Notes under the pieces: model-generated | The model's database searches: none | What the model was told of the DNA's origin: nothing | The model's input: the letters and a program-made list of their open reading frames with translations, nothing else | Source of the DNA: Hymenobacter qilianensis | GTDB lineage: Bacteria > Bacteroidota > Bacteroidia > Cytophagales > Hymenobacteraceae | Assembly: GCF_014489555.1 (NCBI RefSeq) | Contig: NZ_CP060784.1 | Coordinates: 3,782,001-3,846,000 of the forward strand | Length of the DNA stretch: 64,000 bases | Direction of reading: 5' to 3' | Program-made: the position numbers and the translations under genes | In this document: positions 19,930-26,453 of the stretch, piece after piece | How the letters are laid out: each line of letters opens with the position of its first letter | Numbering within the stretch: the stretch's first letter is position 1

Positions 19930-20439
19930 CTACCACCAGTTTTGCCCCCCATACGTCCACAGCCACTCTACCGCTTCCCATAGTCCCCAGGCCAGCAGTC
20001 CAAAAATGATGATCATACCTACCAGCACCACCGCCAGCAGCCCCTTACCGCTGCCTTGGTATTTGCCCTCGGCATAATGGCGGCGCAGCAGGCGCACGTT
20101 GCGGTCGTTGGCTTTATAGGCGAAGTCAAATATGTTGCCCAGCACCGGAATGGCTCCGATAATAGTATCGAGCAAGATGTTGAGCACCATGCGAATAACC
20201 AGGCTGCCGCTGGCTCCGTGGCGCATCATTGTCAGCACTAGTGCCCCTGATACGGCCATACTCGTCAGGTTGCCCACCACGGGCAGCAGACTCAAAATAG
20301 GATCGAGGCCGAAGCGAAAACGGGTACCGGGCAGGGTAAACTGGCTGTCCATGAGGTGAGCGATGCTCTGCACCCAGCGCAGGCGTTCGTCATTTTCGAA
20401 GGTTGGGTCAACCGGTCTGGGGGGCATTTTGGGTTGCAT
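19930..20439 (-). CDS. DUF4112 family membrane protein
   Basis: About 170 residues. The family pattern is LMDSQFTLPGTRFRFGLDPI, then LLPVVGNLTSMAVSGALVL and IPVLGNIFDFAYKANDRNV, followed by a C-terminal membrane helix (GLLAVVLVGMIIIFGLLAWG). The two P-V-(V/L)-G-N repeats are the hallmark. Function is unknown. The start at 20439 (MQPKMPPRP) gives a compact N-terminus; an upstream extension of 33 codons has no similarity to the family. A GC-motif copy (20419-20424) falls in the first codons. Confidence 0.8.
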   Translation of the reverse strand: MQPKMPPRPVDPTFENDERLRWVQSIAHLMDSQFTLPGTRFRFGLDPILSLLPVVGNLTSMAVSGALVLTMMRHGASGSLVIRMVLNILLDTIIGAIPVLGNIFDFAYKANDRNVRLLRRHYAEGKYQGSGKGLLAVVLVGMIIIFGLLAWGLWEAVEWLWTYGGQNWW

Positions 20440-20627
20440 AGGGAGAGGGCTTTGCTCGTTAAACGAAAGAACGGCGCGGGCGGGTGCGTTCGGCAAGTTT
20501 AGGTCGTTGGCCAGGTTTGCTGAGGGTGAGAAAACCAAATTTTGTGTTTGCCAAACTCAGCCTCCGTTGCCTTTCTCTGCGTTAAGAATGCAGCTAGTCT
20601 TATCAATTTGTACCTAATAACAACGAT

Positions 20628-21617
<990 letters not shown>

Positions 21618-21628
21618 TAAGCGGTATG

Positions 21629-21808
21629 CTACGGATTGTCAATAAAAGTTTTGGTTGAAGATGGATTGCGCTTGCCTTCCCTCAAATATTTATGCAGCGC
21701 CCTTGCCACAAGGTATAGCACATACACCCCGAAAATTTGCAGCAGAAGAGTTAAAAGCTGAGCTAGAAACATTATGTAATATCCGAATTCTAAGAAAAGT
21801 GAAGGCAT
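21629..21808 (-). CDS. Small membrane protein, 59 residues
   Basis: A short frame in the gap between the aldo/keto reductase and the cyclase-like gene. The product has an N-terminal hydrophobic start (MPSLFLEFGYYIMFLAQL), one strong helix (LLLQIFGVYVLYLVARALHK) and a basic, polar tail RNPSSTKTFIDNP. An internal Met gives a 47-residue alternative. I know no family name. The clean amphipathic design and the absence of another gene in this space support it. The stop lies 11 bases from the reductase stop (convergent). Confidence 0.5.
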   Translation of the reverse strand: MPSLFLEFGYYIMFLAQLLTLLLQIFGVYVLYLVARALHKYLREGKRNPSSTKTFIDNP

Positions 21809-21878
21809 AGCTTATGTGTGTTAGATGAGTAGGATAAATAGAGATATAAAGTTATCTGAAAAATTGGGTCTGAGCTAC

Positions 21879-23324
21879 TTAACTCACCGGCGGCAGCAAA
21901 TCAATCAGGCCATCTTCGCTGACCACCACGGCTAGCACGGCGTACTGGCTACTTTCCACGTAGCGCAAGGCCGAGTTGTAGCGGGAGCCGCGGGAGGAGT
22001 CGCCTTTGGCAGTGGCCAGGCCGTCGAGAATGGCGCCAATGGCATGGCAGATGCCGTGTTGGTCTACGAGCACGGCTCCGTCAATATTCGTAACCAGGCG
22101 TAGAATGGCGGGCGTCATCAGGCGGGGCACTACCCGGAAGCACTGACGGGTGAGGCGCTGGGCTTCCTGCGCCGCACCTGCCGAAATCACCAGAATAGTG
22201 CCGGTAGATTGGGTGCTGGCTTCCTGGGTGAGCCGCCAGAGATACGAAATACCGGCATCTAGTAGCTCGGGCCACTGCTTGCGCACGGCATGCGCGAAAT
22301 TATCGGCATCGACGCGGCCCTGGGGCAGGCGGGGAGAATTCGACACCACCTTCATCATAATATGATCGGCGTGGGTCAGCTCCCAGCTGTAGTGCTTGGT
22401 GAAGTGCACCATAAATAAAGGCTCATAGCTGGGGTGCGTTTCCTCCACCAGATACCCCAAACCGAAGACATGGGTGGCGTCTGTTATCAGCGCCGTATTG
22501 TCTTCGCTCAGCTCCAGAAGCTTCCGAATGGAACGGTGGTCGCGGAGGGTAATGGGCGTTTCAAGGGTCAATACGGGCACAATGGCGGGATGGTGGCGGC
22601 GCGCCACAATCATCAGCCCGATACCATCGTCGCCTTCGTGCCGAAGCGCGGCCACGCCGTTACAGGCATCGTAGAGGCCGTGGGTGCCGGCTGCCGCTCG
22701 CAGCATAAAGCGCCGACCAGCGGCGCGCAGCATCTCGTTGTAGTCGCGGTCGAGGACGGGGTGGGCGTCGTCGGAATCGGATTCGCGCAGGGCGCGGGCG
22801 CAATCCTGCAAAAACTCCTGCACGGCCGCGGCCAGCAAGGAGTTGGCGCGGGCCACAATCTTGTCGGGCAGGGCATAATAGCCGTGATATGCTTCGGACG
22901 ATAGCTGCAATACCACCAGCACCATATACCCATTAAAGCTGACAGGTAGCGAGCAGAAAGAGACGCGCTTCATCGGCTCGGGGGGCATTTCATTCAACGT
23001 CAATTCCGTAGCCTGACGGAGCAACTCGTACCAGCGCTGCTTCTCAAAGCGGTCCTGGTCGGTGGGGTGCAGGTGATACACGACCTCGCGGGGCCCTTCA
23101 GCCGATTCCAGCGCAGCGGCGCGCACCTTCACTTCCGTAAACTCGGCGCTGGGGTAGCGGTGGTTGGCGGGCTCAAGTACGACAGCCTGTGGCTCGTCGG
23201 GTTCTTTTGCGGAGGCCAGGCCAAGTAAAAAAACTTCGGGCTTTAAATTTCTATCCAGCAGATTAAAAACGCCTTCGGCAAACAGCTGGGCCGAGACGCG
23301 AAACAGACTTTGGTGCTCCCACAT
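21879..23324 (-). CDS. Diadenylate-cyclase-like protein with large N-terminal sensor region (DisA_N-type C-terminal domain)
   Basis: A 481-residue protein. About 350 N-terminal residues form an unnamed sensor region, consistent with the DACNV-type domain described in front of DisA_N cyclases. The C-terminal ~130 residues fit the DAC fold: VTNIDGAVLVDQHG contains the DGA motif, followed by AIGAILDG, then RGSRYNSALRYVESS where classical enzymes have the RHR(AA) motif, and VLAVVVSEDGLIDLLPP. Classical DAC enzymes make c-di-AMP from two ATP. Here the second motif reads RYN rather than RHR, so activity may be altered in product or lost. Family assignment is from motif order; a housekeeping CdaA would be expected elsewhere in the genome. 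Confidence 0.7.
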   Translation of the reverse strand: MWEHQSLFRVSAQLFAEGVFNLLDRNLKPEVFLLGLASAKEPDEPQAVVLEPANHRYPSAEFTEVKVRAAALESAEGPREVVYHLHPTDQDRFEKQRWYELLRQATELTLNEMPPEPMKRVSFCSLPVSFNGYMVLVVLQLSSEAYHGYYALPDKIVARANSLLAAAVQEFLQDCARALRESDSDDAHPVLDRDYNEMLRAAGRRFMLRAAAGTHGLYDACNGVAALRHEGDDGIGLMIVARRHHPAIVPVLTLETPITLRDHRSIRKLLELSEDNTALITDATHVFGLGYLVEETHPSYEPLFMVHFTKHYSWELTHADHIMMKVVSNSPRLPQGRVDADNFAHAVRKQWPELLDAGISYLWRLTQEASTQSTGTILVISAGAAQEAQRLTRQCFRVVPRLMTPAILRLVTNIDGAVLVDQHGICHAIGAILDGLATAKGDSSRGSRYNSALRYVESSQYAVLAVVVSEDGLIDLLPPVS

Positions 23325-23549
23325 AGGGCGATTTGGGCGGTCAGGAGAAGGAAAGAGCCAGAAAACATTACGGCGTACGCGAAAATGCCCCCAGGGTGGT
23401 ATATCAGGGCGGCAACATTCCGGCCAGATTAAGGCAACATCCAGCCGCCCGCATAGTTATAGCCAGTATACCGAGGATTGTTGCGCGTTGGGAAACTCTC
23501 GCCAATCGCGTATCTTCACAATACCGCTCATCCCATAGCTGCCACCGCC

Positions 23550-23797
23550 ATGTTTGTTGATTTACTGCTGGGCTTTTTGTGCGCTATGTCGTTTCTGCCC
23601 TCACCACCGGGTATTGTGCCCATAGCTATGGACGGTCGTTCTGGCTGTGGTTTGCGTTGGGCTGGGTGTTGCCCATTGTCTCGTTCTTTCTGCTTTTTGC
23701 CCTTATCTGCCGCAAGCAGCTGAACCCCGGCGAGTGCCTTCTGGACGAAGCAAAAGCCATTCTGGCCGACGCCGAGCAGAAGGCTATTAATAAGTAG
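23550..23797 (+). CDS. Small membrane protein, about 82 residues (probable one-base frameshift)
   Basis: Read from ATG 23550 with one extra T in the T5 run 23574-23578, the product is MFVDLLLGFFVRYVVSALTT, then a helix (FWLWFALGWVLPIVSFFLLF) and a charged C-terminal helix (LDEAKAILADAEQKAINK). Without the correction, a 72-residue version could start at GTG 23579. Two membrane segments and a cytosolic helical tail are predicted. No family is recognised. It lies between divergent and convergent neighbours and is probably monocistronic. Confidence 0.55.
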
Positions 23798-23809
23798 GAA
23801 ACCGCGTTT

Positions 23810-25039
23810 CTACGCCAGCCGTTTTGTAACGGCATCGGCTACCCAGGCGCCCGTGCTAAAGCAGCCTTGCAGCAGATAGCCGCCCGTGGGCGCTTCCCAA
23901 TCCAGCATTTCGCCGGCCACAAAGGTGCCGGGTCGCCGGCGCAGCATCAGGTTTTCATCCAGCTCTTCCCACGCTACGCCGCCCGCCGTGCTGATGGCCT
24001 CATCCAGCGGCCGCAGCCCACGCACGGGCAAGGGCAGCTGCTGAAGCAGTCGGGCCAGACTTTCGGGTGAACTGGTAATGGTGTCAGGTGGTGCTACTTC
24101 ACGCAATAGGGTTGGTACGGGTGGGCCTAAGTGTAAGGTTTGCTGCAAAAAAGCCCCCCACGACTTGCTGCCCCGCGGTTTGCTTAGTTTTTGCACCAGC
24201 TGATTATGTGTCAGGTCGGGCTTGAGGTTCAGCCACAGCGTTGCCGGTGTTTCCCGACTGAGCGCCGTGCGTAAGGCCGGCGTGAGGGCGTACACCGGCG
24301 TGCCTTCCACCCCGTAGTCGGTTAGCATAAGCTCGCCGCGCATGGTTTGGCCTTCGCAGGTCAGGGCAATGTTTTTGAGCGGAGCGCGGACTACTTTTTC
24401 TTTGAAAAAAGCCCCCCAGGCTATCTCGGCGCCACAGTTAGCCGGAGCGAAGGGCGTGCAGCGCACTCCTATTTCGGAGAAGGCTGAAGTCCAGCCGCCA
24501 TCGGAGCCGGTTTTGGCCCAGCTGGCCCCGCCTAAGGCCAACACCACCGCTGGGGAGCAAATTTCCAGCTCCTCGCCGGTCTGCTCATTGCACACGAGCA
24601 AGCCGTTGGGTGAGTCGGGCACGAAGCCCAGCCAGCGGTGCCGCGTTTTGATAACCACGCCCAGTGCGGCCAGGCGTGTCAGCCAGGCACGTAATAGTTG
24701 GGCAGGCTTGTAGTCAGCCGTGGGAAATATGCGGCCGCTGCTGCCGACAAAGGTTTCTACGCCCAGATCGGCGGCCCAAGCGCGTAGCTGCTCGGGGCCA
24801 AAATGCGTGAGAAACGAAGCAAATGGCTCTTGGTGAGCACCATAGCGCTTGCCAAAGGTGGGCAGCGGCTCGCTGTGCGTTAGGTTGAAGCCGCCGTGTC
24901 CGGCCACCAGAAACTTGCGCCCCACGGTAGCTTGTGCCTCATACACCGTCACGCGGTGGCCCGCTTCCGCCAAGTGCTGAGCGGCCAGCAAGCCCGCCGG
25001 GCCGCCCCCAATAATGGCGATGCTGGGATGGTCAGACAT
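23810..25039 (-). CDS. NAD(P)/FAD-dependent flavoprotein, HI0933/BaiN-like family
   Basis: A 409-residue oxidoreductase. The N-terminal dinucleotide fold is IAIIGGGPAGLLAAQHLAEA with the following VYEAQ acidic residue. FLVAGHGGFNLTHSE is the family's second signature, and the C-terminal FAD-binding segment is TFVAGEMLDWEAPTGGYLLQ. Members of this group (TIGR03862-like) are uncharacterised flavoproteins; one relative, BaiN, acts in bile-acid dehydroxylation. The start at 25039 follows an in-frame upstream Met with no family similarity. Two GC-motif copies lie in the gene and are read as WGAFL/F. Confidence 0.88.
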   Translation of the reverse strand: MSDHPSIAIIGGGPAGLLAAQHLAEAGHRVTVYEAQATVGRKFLVAGHGGFNLTHSEPLPTFGKRYGAHQEPFASFLTHFGPEQLRAWAADLGVETFVGSSGRIFPTADYKPAQLLRAWLTRLAALGVVIKTRHRWLGFVPDSPNGLLVCNEQTGEELEICSPAVVLALGGASWAKTGSDGGWTSAFSEIGVRCTPFAPANCGAEIAWGAFFKEKVVRAPLKNIALTCEGQTMRGELMLTDYGVEGTPVYALTPALRTALSRETPATLWLNLKPDLTHNQLVQKLSKPRGSKSWGAFLQQTLHLGPPVPTLLREVAPPDTITSSPESLARLLQQLPLPVRGLRPLDEAISTAGGVAWEELDENLMLRRRPGTFVAGEMLDWEAPTGGYLLQGCFSTGAWVADAVTKRLA

Positions 25040-25265
25040 AAATGCAAAGTGGAAAGTAGCGGCCGGCAAGATACGACACTACCGCGCCGCCGTCTGGGCG
25101 GGCTCCGTGCATATTAATCCTGCCGCAATTTATACCCGGTGACTATGCCTCTTGGGTTACATCCAAAATGCAAAACGTTTTAATTTGTCGGCGTTCAGGG
25201 TTTAGATATGTTAACTTTCCAGCGCCACCGTATAGAAGGCAGTTCTGTCCACGAATTTTCCCAAC

Positions 25266-26453
25266 ATGGGTCCTTATACCATCCTGATTGGCCTGAGCCT
25301 GGCCGTTGTCTTATCTTACTTGTTTGATCTCGCGGCAAGGGCCACAAAAGTGCCGTCGGTGCTGATGCTACTCTTCACGGGTATCGCGCTAAAGCAGGCT
25401 GCCGACTACGGCGACGTGGGCGTATTGATACCCAAAGTAGTACTGGAGATATTTGGTATCATTGGTCTAATACTCATTGTGTTGGAAGGGGCTCTGGATT
25501 TAAAGATTAGTCGCGATAAAGCCCCTTTGATCCAGCGTTCCTTCGCGGCGGCCGCACTAATTCTGGTAGTGCAGGCCCTTATTATTGCCGAGCTGCTTCA
25601 GCTTTATCTGGATGTCCCATTTCAGACGTGTTTGATTAATGCCGTACCGCTGGCTGTCATCAGCTCGGCTATAGCCATTCCGAGCGTATCCAATCTGGGC
25701 GGGGAGAAGCAGGAGTTTATTGTGTACGAAAGCACTTTTTCGGACATCCTCGGCATCATGCTTTTCAACTTTGCCTTGCAGGACAACTTTGCTCAGGGAA
25801 TATCCATTCTCACGTTCCTTCGCGATGTGGTATTTGTGTCCATTTTAGCCGTCATAAGTACCGCTGTACTGGCTTTTATGCTGGACCGCATCCGACTACA
25901 CATCAAGTTCTTCCTGATTTTTGCCTTCCTGGTCCTGATTTATAGCTTGGCCAAAAAGCTGCATTTGTCATCCCTGCTATTGGTTCTGGCCTTCGGACTA
26001 GCCGTGAACAACGCAGAATTATTCCTTCGGGGACCACTGCGCCGTTTGCTGCACCCTGAGCGTCTGGCCGAGGAACTGCACCAGTTTAAGAGTATCACGG
26101 CCGAGTCGGCGTTCCTTATCCGCACGTTCTTCTTTTTGCTGTTTGGCTACTCCATCACCCTCACCAATCTCATCAGTGTCACGCTCCTATGGCAAGGACT
26201 CTTGATTGTAGCGGTGCTCACTGTTATCCGCTTTTTCTACCTGCGCTATATCGCCAAATCGGACCTGATACCTGAGCTGTTTATAGCCCCCAAAGGCCTA
26301 ATTTCCATTCTGTTATTTTATAGCATCCCCGATAATCATCTTATTGGGCAAGTCAGCGAAAACATCCTCTTTGTCGTAATTCTTCTGACGGGCCTGCTCA
26401 TGATGGTTGGCCTGATGCTGGCCCGTAAGGAGCCGGAGCTGGGCGAGTATTAA
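25266..26453 (+). CDS. CPA-type cation:proton antiporter
   Basis: A 395-residue protein with about twelve membrane helices. The sequence ILIVLEGALDLKIS and the transport-site helix IVYESTFSDILGIMLF, where a conserved Asp lies in the E-S-x-x-S-D pattern, fit the CPA1/CPA2 exchanger fold. It lacks a C-terminal TrkA regulatory domain. It probably exchanges Na+ or K+ for H+. It begins a run of six genes for ion or membrane homeostasis (25.3-32.3 kb). ATG 26535 of the MscS gene follows 81 bases on, on the same strand, so co-transcription is likely. Confidence 0.85.
   Translation: MGPYTILIGLSLAVVLSYLFDLAARATKVPSVLMLLFTGIALKQAADYGDVGVLIPKVVLEIFGIIGLILIVLEGALDLKISRDKAPLIQRSFAAAALILVVQALIIAELLQLYLDVPFQTCLINAVPLAVISSAIAIPSVSNLGGEKQEFIVYESTFSDILGIMLFNFALQDNFAQGISILTFLRDVVFVSILAVISTAVLAFMLDRIRLHIKFFLIFAFLVLIYSLAKKLHLSSLLLVLAFGLAVNNAELFLRGPLRRLLHPERLAEELHQFKSITAESAFLIRTFFFLLFGYSITLTNLISVTLLWQGLLIVAVLTVIRFFYLRYIAKSDLIPELFIAPKGLISILLFYSIPDNHLIGQVSENILFVVILLTGLLMMVGLMLARKEPELGEY

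Follow-up and report, generated by a model that had tools for sequence, protein, structure and literature searches.

The window analysed here, a stretch of 64,000 nucleotides from Hymenobacter qilianensis, is part of a 5.0-Mb genome and carries on its minus strand a gene for a DAC-domain protein, which we call gene A (protein DAC_A). The features discussed below are given with their positions in the window; A2 denotes an alignment of 62 family proteins, 47 of them from outside Hymenobacter.

21879..23324, minus strand: DAC_A gene, 481 aa, ATG start, DACNG-DACNH-DAC architecture
22704..23324, minus strand: DACNG domain, residues 1-207 (Pfam PF21752, 239.3 bits)
22317..22712, minus strand: DACNH segment, residues 205-336 (Pfam, 111.1 bits over residues 215-319), a degenerate DAC fold according to the predicted model
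21906..22226, minus strand: DAC domain, residues 367-473 (PF02457, 39.4 bits; cut-off 27)
22074..22082, minus strand: DGA motif, D415 G416 A417 (A2 alignment)
21960..21992, minus strand: RGSRYNSALRY signature, R445-Y455, in the position of RHR (A2 and Hymenobacter A/B proteins)
23579..23797, plus strand: 72-aa small membrane-type protein, GTG start as listed, divergent neighbour of A
19930..20538, minus strand: DUF4112 protein (PF13430, 119 bits), recurrent same-strand neighbour of A

All three Pfam domains exceed their cut-offs and follow one another in the order DACNG, DACNH, DAC from the N- to the C-terminus. The first-pass annotation had described a DAC-like C-terminal domain with a DGA motif behind some 350 uncharacterised residues. 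The domain and its motif (residues 415-417) are borne out by the PF02457 match and by the DAC fold of the predicted model; the supposedly uncharacterised part consists of two named Pfam domains, DACNG (239 bits) and DACNH (111 bits), the second of which has a DAC-like predicted fold. Judging from two close relatives, gene A is under strong purifying selection: dN and dS are 0.012 and 0.506 against the ortholog in genome G061 and 0.009 and 0.392 against that in G085, with dN/dS about 0.024 in each case. PADLOC and PDB sequence searches with DAC_A gave no match, tblastn against phage records found no relative of it, and an Rfam scan of positions 21000-25500 gave no match over threshold. Promoter and terminator scans stayed at chance level, the promoter model describing sigma-70 sites and not those of the Bacteroidota type.

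Around gene A the window encodes the DUF4112 protein, an aldo/keto reductase, an HI0933-like flavoprotein, a Na/H exchanger and MscS. Pfam searches of these neighbours recognised no effector or receptor, in agreement with the earlier remark that no obvious effector adjoins the gene. We compared 29 A loci and 30 loci of a paralog, gene B, taken from genomes with both copies among the matches listed. The HI0933-like gene accompanies A in all 29 loci, the DUF4112 gene in 25, the exchanger gene in 23 and the reductase gene in 22. The small membrane proteins on either side had been proposed as partners, to be checked for co-occurrence across genomes, and this holds for one of them. The 72-aa ORF lies divergently beside A in 29/29 loci, 207-336 bp away, and has a homolog somewhere in 119 of 120 Hymenobacter genomes; the span first assigned to it, 23550-23797, is 248 nt long and not an ORF, the real ORF being 23579-23797. 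ORF 21629-21808 exists, yet a relative was seen in only 1/29 orthologous loci, and it was discarded as a partner. Further, often weaker, matches to the 72-aa protein occur in many Hymenobacter genomes, up to four per genome, so it is one member of a separate small family of proteins.

The DACNG domain is a core feature of the genus. It was found in 120/120 Hymenobacter genomes, with exactly two matches in 116, three in three genomes (including the window's genome, where the second copy is split) and one in a single fragmentary genome. An even draw across the phylum recovered it from 4 of 395 genomes, all four Hymenobacter, and a family-level survey from 130 of 204 genomes, in three of six genera. 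By identity to the window gene the fetched loci fall into two groups, A (66-98 %) and B (36-40 %), and both chromosomal loci are conserved among those read. Upstream of B, a TonB_C-type protein is encoded on the same strand in 30/30 loci, 106-671 bp from the matched start (Pfam identity checked in two of them). We rejected it as a dedicated B partner: it is an exported-type protein kept merely as a neighbour.

In the sister genus (g172), each of the two genomes with a match has a single copy; it shares 46 % identity with A and adjoins a DUF4112 gene in both loci read. A and B stand apart in a quick tree; a topology constrained to unite A, B and the copies of the sister genus was not rejected (p-AU 0.471, after 33 of 92 rows had been dropped as long branches or near-copies). 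The pair may go back to a duplication within the genus or to two acquisitions. The B copy of the window's genome is split by a frameshift, a run of G being one base shorter than in G061 (L087:5441-7023; G000:C1, ~2.28 Mb); the frameshift may be real or an error of the assembly. Among the A orthologs, L031 is interrupted as well.

Besides the DACNG genes, all 120 Hymenobacter genomes have a strong best match to PF02457, of CdaA strength, two of these being partial; CdaA was read as sequence in the window's genome. This agrees with the earlier proposal of a system separate from CdaA. DAC_A could instead be a second c-di-AMP synthase, which makes the ordinary product and brings extra inputs into a common pool. 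It has the DAC fold, and the RHR-bearing CdaA of the genome could share one pool with it. c-di-AMP classically acts on cation transport, and a Na+/H+ exchanger lies near A in 23/29 loci. However, the exchanger matches the Na_H_Exchanger model alone, with no second domain, and its synteny with A is no closer than that of other housekeeping genes. Moreover, relatives of DAC_A serve CBASS and Cap15 loci, and an ordinary pool of c-di-AMP would be expected to interfere there. We consider such a synthase quite unlikely.

The active-site motif sets DAC_A apart from CdaA. When LGLRHRAAIGLSE of DAC_A is aligned against RGSRYNSALRYVE of the genome's own CdaA, which carries RHR, the RYN of residues 448-450 falls exactly over it, as had been noted at first pass; hhalign (probability 1.3 %) and BLASTP (E 0.49) both give weak alignments with an identical register. 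Compared to CdaA, DAC_A has two additional arginines, R445, three residues before R448, and R454, six after it. Of the features of canonical DisA, CdaA and CdaS, it has DGA and lacks RHR. M. tuberculosis DacA neither bound ATP nor was active once its RHR had been replaced by AAA, according to excerpts of PMC3328451.

The altered motif had been taken as peculiar to DAC_A, and a one-off oddity can be ruled out, as the whole family carries a signature that we define here as RG-x-R-[Y/F]-N. Among the matches listed, D415, G416, R445, G446, R448, N450, Y455, S469 and D471 are invariant in A2 (62/62), position 449 is Y in 59 and F in 3, R454 is found in 60/62, and the third residue of DGA is A in 41, T in 20 and S in 1. 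Loci outside A2 are L124, L141, L150 and L151 (with DGS), L110 and L113, and, of the 27 Hymenobacter loci in the scan, 13 B loci; RYN or RFN is likewise present in the six from outside Hymenobacter. Counts from the contig scan lean to RYN because one of its two peptide patterns was the RYN motif; HMM or tblastn searches, which are free of this bias, supplied the plasmid set and the Hymenobacter A and B proteins. Among 80 Hymenobacter A and B proteins, a set that leaves out L031, an interrupted A row, and the window genome's split B copy, the A2-invariant positions plus R454 are all invariant (80/80), and position 449 is Y in 72 and F in 8. Across these two groups, 43 of 107 positions are invariant in the DAC domain and 17 of 207 in DACNG. 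The seven plasmid homologs found by tblastn have RYN (four), RFN (two) or RLN (one), and the DS-2-type DAC of E. coli 361 reads RGSRYNSGVRY. As RYN or RFN recurs in A2, in Hymenobacter A and B, in plasmid homologs and in the E. coli DS-2 copy, the altered motif is a family trait. Such invariance is a sign of constraint, not proof of catalysis.

The AF2 model of DAC_A (mean pLDDT 90.2, pTM 0.84) had CdaM, DisA and CdaA as its best Foldseek matches (E 1.9e-5 and up). In VIA, residues ~340-481 of the predicted model gave Z 13.4 to 11.4 against DisA and CdaA, the top match being DisA 9y9y_D (Z 13.4, rmsd 3.1, 125 aligned). The comparison with DisA and CdaA that the first-pass annotation had suggested thus shows a DAC fold at the C-terminus of the model. 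DACNH was modelled alone by AF2 from 57 sequences (pLDDT 85.7). Its six top Foldseek rows are all DAC-family, the best with probability 0.99 and E 0.043 and none with E below 0.001. VIA placed 37 DAC-family entries at Z 10.3-7.0 and the first unrelated fold at 2.5, in a pool made of Foldseek's own candidates in which 14/37 rows reach 8.0, a best Z of 7-8 being common by chance. DACNH has neither DGA nor RHR, and its own invariant residues are E230, G236, R267, K268 and W314. A relation of DACNH to the DAC domain by sequence found no support: hhalign of the two domains of the same proteins gave no matching register (probability 0.8 %), and the link is by fold only. On the predicted model, we read DACNH, which has been called a probable sensor, as a degenerate DAC fold, and DAC_A would for this reason be a pseudo-DAC/DAC tandem. 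For DACNG, residues 3-187 gave VIA Z 5.0-5.5 to LuxR-type autoinducer-binding and IclR effector domains; this is a weak hint of a GAF-like sensor, below the level where a fold match means much, and no fold was assigned. In titles and abstract openings, we found nothing on DACNG and nothing on DACNH as a degenerate, tandem or inactive DAC, although an earlier description of the domain names, and perhaps of the fold, is possible. Searches for DACNH, DACNV and DACND found only unrelated work, and no literature linking Hymenobacter with c-di-AMP was found.

A protein of this build might be a catalytically dead nucleotide sensor, with both DAC folds binding nucleotide (c-di-AMP from CdaA, or ATP) and serving as receptor or allosteric switch. 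This would fit the loss of RHR and the inactivity of DacA with AAA at RHR (PMC3328451, in excerpt). One DAC fold of the predicted tandem is plainly degenerate, and no effector was recognised in the locus. On the other hand, DG and RxxRYN are among the best-kept positions across distant taxa, and DS-2 defence is lost on mutating predicted catalytic DAC residues, as an excerpt of PMC13092281 has it. A dead sensor seems unlikely to us.

Canonical DACs require two DAC domains head to head (PMC8573169 and PMC7288161, both in excerpt), so a single chain that joins a pseudo-DAC to a DAC suggests an asymmetric site. We can imagine that the two folds, one degenerate and one altered in place of two identical domains, together make a mixed-base or mixed-linkage cyclic dinucleotide, which would serve CBASS/2TM-beta defence in many phyla and would have become fixed as a two-gene A/B circuit in Hymenobacter. 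Taken as a whole, this is a speculative and doubtful proposal.

A contig scan with two peptide patterns recovered at least 80 loci, 27 from Hymenobacter and 53 others among the matches listed, several of them cut by contig ends. Hosts of the others, among the matches listed, include Pseudomonadota, Bacteroidota, Planctomycetota, Cyanobacteriota, archaea and more. A CD-NTase was found in 24/53 of these listed loci (22 by our own profile, 2 via SMODS placement) and in 3/7 plasmid loci. Cap15 was found in 12 of the 50 DAC loci searched among the matches listed (all of the 53 but L113, L164 and L172), and the SMODS search covered the genomes behind 50 loci (all but L169, L180 and L183). Our own profile missed the divergent CD-NTases of L129 and L150, which SMODS placement caught, and SMODS was silent in several genomes with an own-profile match, e.g. 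L107, L121 and L131. Since each method misses some, "no CD-NTase" here means none by our own profile, SMODS and PADLOC on selected neighbours. In this sense, three loci among the matches listed combine Cap15 and DAC with no CD-NTase found in the locus. They come from Methylomonas (L114:7309-9752, same strand, 5 bases between the genes), Psychrobacter (L120:7992-10344, convergent, with no SMODS match in the whole genome, SMODS alone missing some CD-NTases) and Acinetobacter rudis (L133:7992-10368, convergent). As the Cap15 receptor adjoins the DAC in them, they suggest that the DAC supplies the nucleotide. Going by gene content, the pairs are possible two-gene systems with the DAC as cyclase, Panoptes-like or CBASS-like.

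Other arrangements were seen as well. In Bacteroidota, the DAC gene has as neighbours genes of nuclease type (DUF6602/NucC-like, Mrr, PLD) or one for a PtuA-like ATPase (L148:7091-10730, L146:7125-11304, L141:6999-9749). A 362-aa ORF directly before the DAC gene at L117:6916-8004 is an apparent CD-NTase/Cap15 fusion: the CD-NTase profile matches it, and so does the Cap15 receptor domain in the C-terminal part. Members in archaeal bins (Methanosarcinaceae, Methanoperedens) are L134:7980-9746, L135:7956-9752 and L140:2479-4275; a 163-aa ORF lies ~40 bp upstream in each of L135 and L140, the one in L135 without Pfam match.

Most of these relatives are longer than DAC_A at the C-terminus. DAC_A has 3 residues there. 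Outside Hymenobacter the count is 83-97 for the 47 proteins in A2 and 85-93 for the 6 further loci, so that all 53 among the matches listed have an extension. It is also absent from Hymenobacter A and B, from the Dyadobacter and Priestia plasmid members and from the sister-genus copies, and its loss is thus not confined to Hymenobacter.

In Hymenobacter, our CD-NTase profile had no match in the loci read, and SMODS matched in 27/120 genomes (26 over cut-off) and not in the window's. CBASS was thus not found near gene A with the own profile, nor in the window's genome with SMODS. The Cap15 model matched 0/120 Hymenobacter genomes, its control genomes being silent too, though the same model matched 13/50 genomes elsewhere. 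DAC_A might still be anti-phage, as a Panoptes-like guard whose decoy dinucleotide keeps an unlinked effector off. Among the matches listed, its kin stand in CBASS loci (CD-NTase in 24/53) and beside Cap15 with no CD-NTase found (3 loci), and others in DS-2; in Panoptes, a 2TM-beta effector goes together with a cyclase that is constitutive (PMC12657230 and PMC12657218, in excerpt). The Cap15 count, with the silent controls in mind, argues against a guard, as does the finding of SMODS, which misses some CD-NTases, in only 27 genomes and not in that of the window; fixed loci amid housekeeping genes also seem unlike defence genes. A guard function appears rather improbable.

The reading we favour, at about an even chance, is that DAC_A is an active, sensor-gated cyclic-dinucleotide synthase that moved from mobile defence to a fixed Hymenobacter circuit. 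DACNG would sense a ligand, and DACNH, as a worn-down second DAC fold, would pair with or gate the catalytic DAC. The latter would hold NTP via DGA and a rebuilt phosphate site, in which RHR became RYN and the added R445 and R454 may replace the lost charge. The product would feed its own circuit, via a putative receptor, beside the CdaA/c-di-AMP circuit. The computations give the fold, the tandem DAC architecture (in predicted models), the conservation, the core status, the paralogy, the separation from CdaA and no CBASS gene found nearby; catalysis, product, sensing, the part played by the arginines and the receptor are inferred. An active synthase is favoured by the DAC fold, the invariant D415/G416 and R445/G446/R448/N450, the low dN/dS, the core status, the DS-2 signature and the Cap15 pairs. 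It is disfavoured by the change of two of three RHR residues, given the inactive DacA AAA mutant (PMC3328451, in excerpt), by the lack of a recognised effector or receptor near A and of the C-terminal extension of most relatives, and by the split B of the window's genome and the interrupted A ortholog L031.

Among the closest known systems is DS-2, whose DAC was recently shown to be necessary for phage defence (DefensePredictor, PMC13092281). DACNH as a DAC fold would offer a concrete structural hypothesis for the whole family with its long N-terminal region. Residues 1-480 of the 481 of DAC_A align to the DS-2 DAC model (NCBIfam NF053872, DS2_3_antiphage); the score of 436.9 bits falls short of the equivalog cut-off, 630, and the alignment ends at model position 490 of 576. 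The DS-2 DAC of E. coli 361 is 29.9 % identical to DAC_A and shares RGSRYN, but has 581 aa with a C-terminal extension of ~90 residues that DAC_A lacks. The E. coli copy is annotated as an anti-phage protein behind an anti-phage phospholipase and a nucleotidyltransferase, whereas gene A has no phospholipase or CD-NTase neighbour. Gene A is core and DS-2 accessory, with DS-2-like loci in 18/5426 E. coli genomes. By score, extension and operon, DAC_A is not a DS-2 equivalog. In E. coli 361 (L192:5999-15676), a DncV CBASS comes after the DS-2-type locus, with Cap3, a Cap15-family protein and an mCpol protein, by gene content a stacked cyclic-nucleotide defence island. As excerpted, PMC13092281 reports that 15/30 homologs lie near a CBASS and that mutating two predicted catalytic residues of the DAC eliminates defence. 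Because the DS-2 DAC carries the same signature, a DAC with RGSRYN would, on this excerpt, need its active site in vivo.

With CdaA, DisA and CdaM (PF02457), DAC_A shares DGA and the DAC fold (VIA Z 13.4-11.4 for the predicted model). It differs from them in having RYN for RHR and in the DACNG and the degenerate DAC fold in front, and BLASTP against the genome's own CdaA gives merely E 0.49; on its motif it is not a canonical CdaA or DisA. Panoptes (mCpol/OptS with 2TM-beta/OptE) is described, in excerpts of PMC12657230 and PMC12657218, as a constitutive cyclase paired with a 2TM-beta effector. Some members of the present family elsewhere likewise adjoin a Cap15/2TM effector with no CD-NTase found, but mCpol has a different cyclase fold, and Cap15 matched in 0/120 Hymenobacter genomes. 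Hymenobacter, whose two core members stand alone, no CBASS gene having been found next to either, is a clean setting in which to look for product and receptor. The small Cap15-DAC systems with no CD-NTase detected lend themselves to the same question in laboratory E. coli. DAC_A is a member of the DACNG-DACNH-DAC family and of the DAC fold. The family and its link to defence were known already; the pseudo-DAC/DAC tandem proposed from the models, the core status in Hymenobacter and the Cap15-DAC pairs appear to be new.
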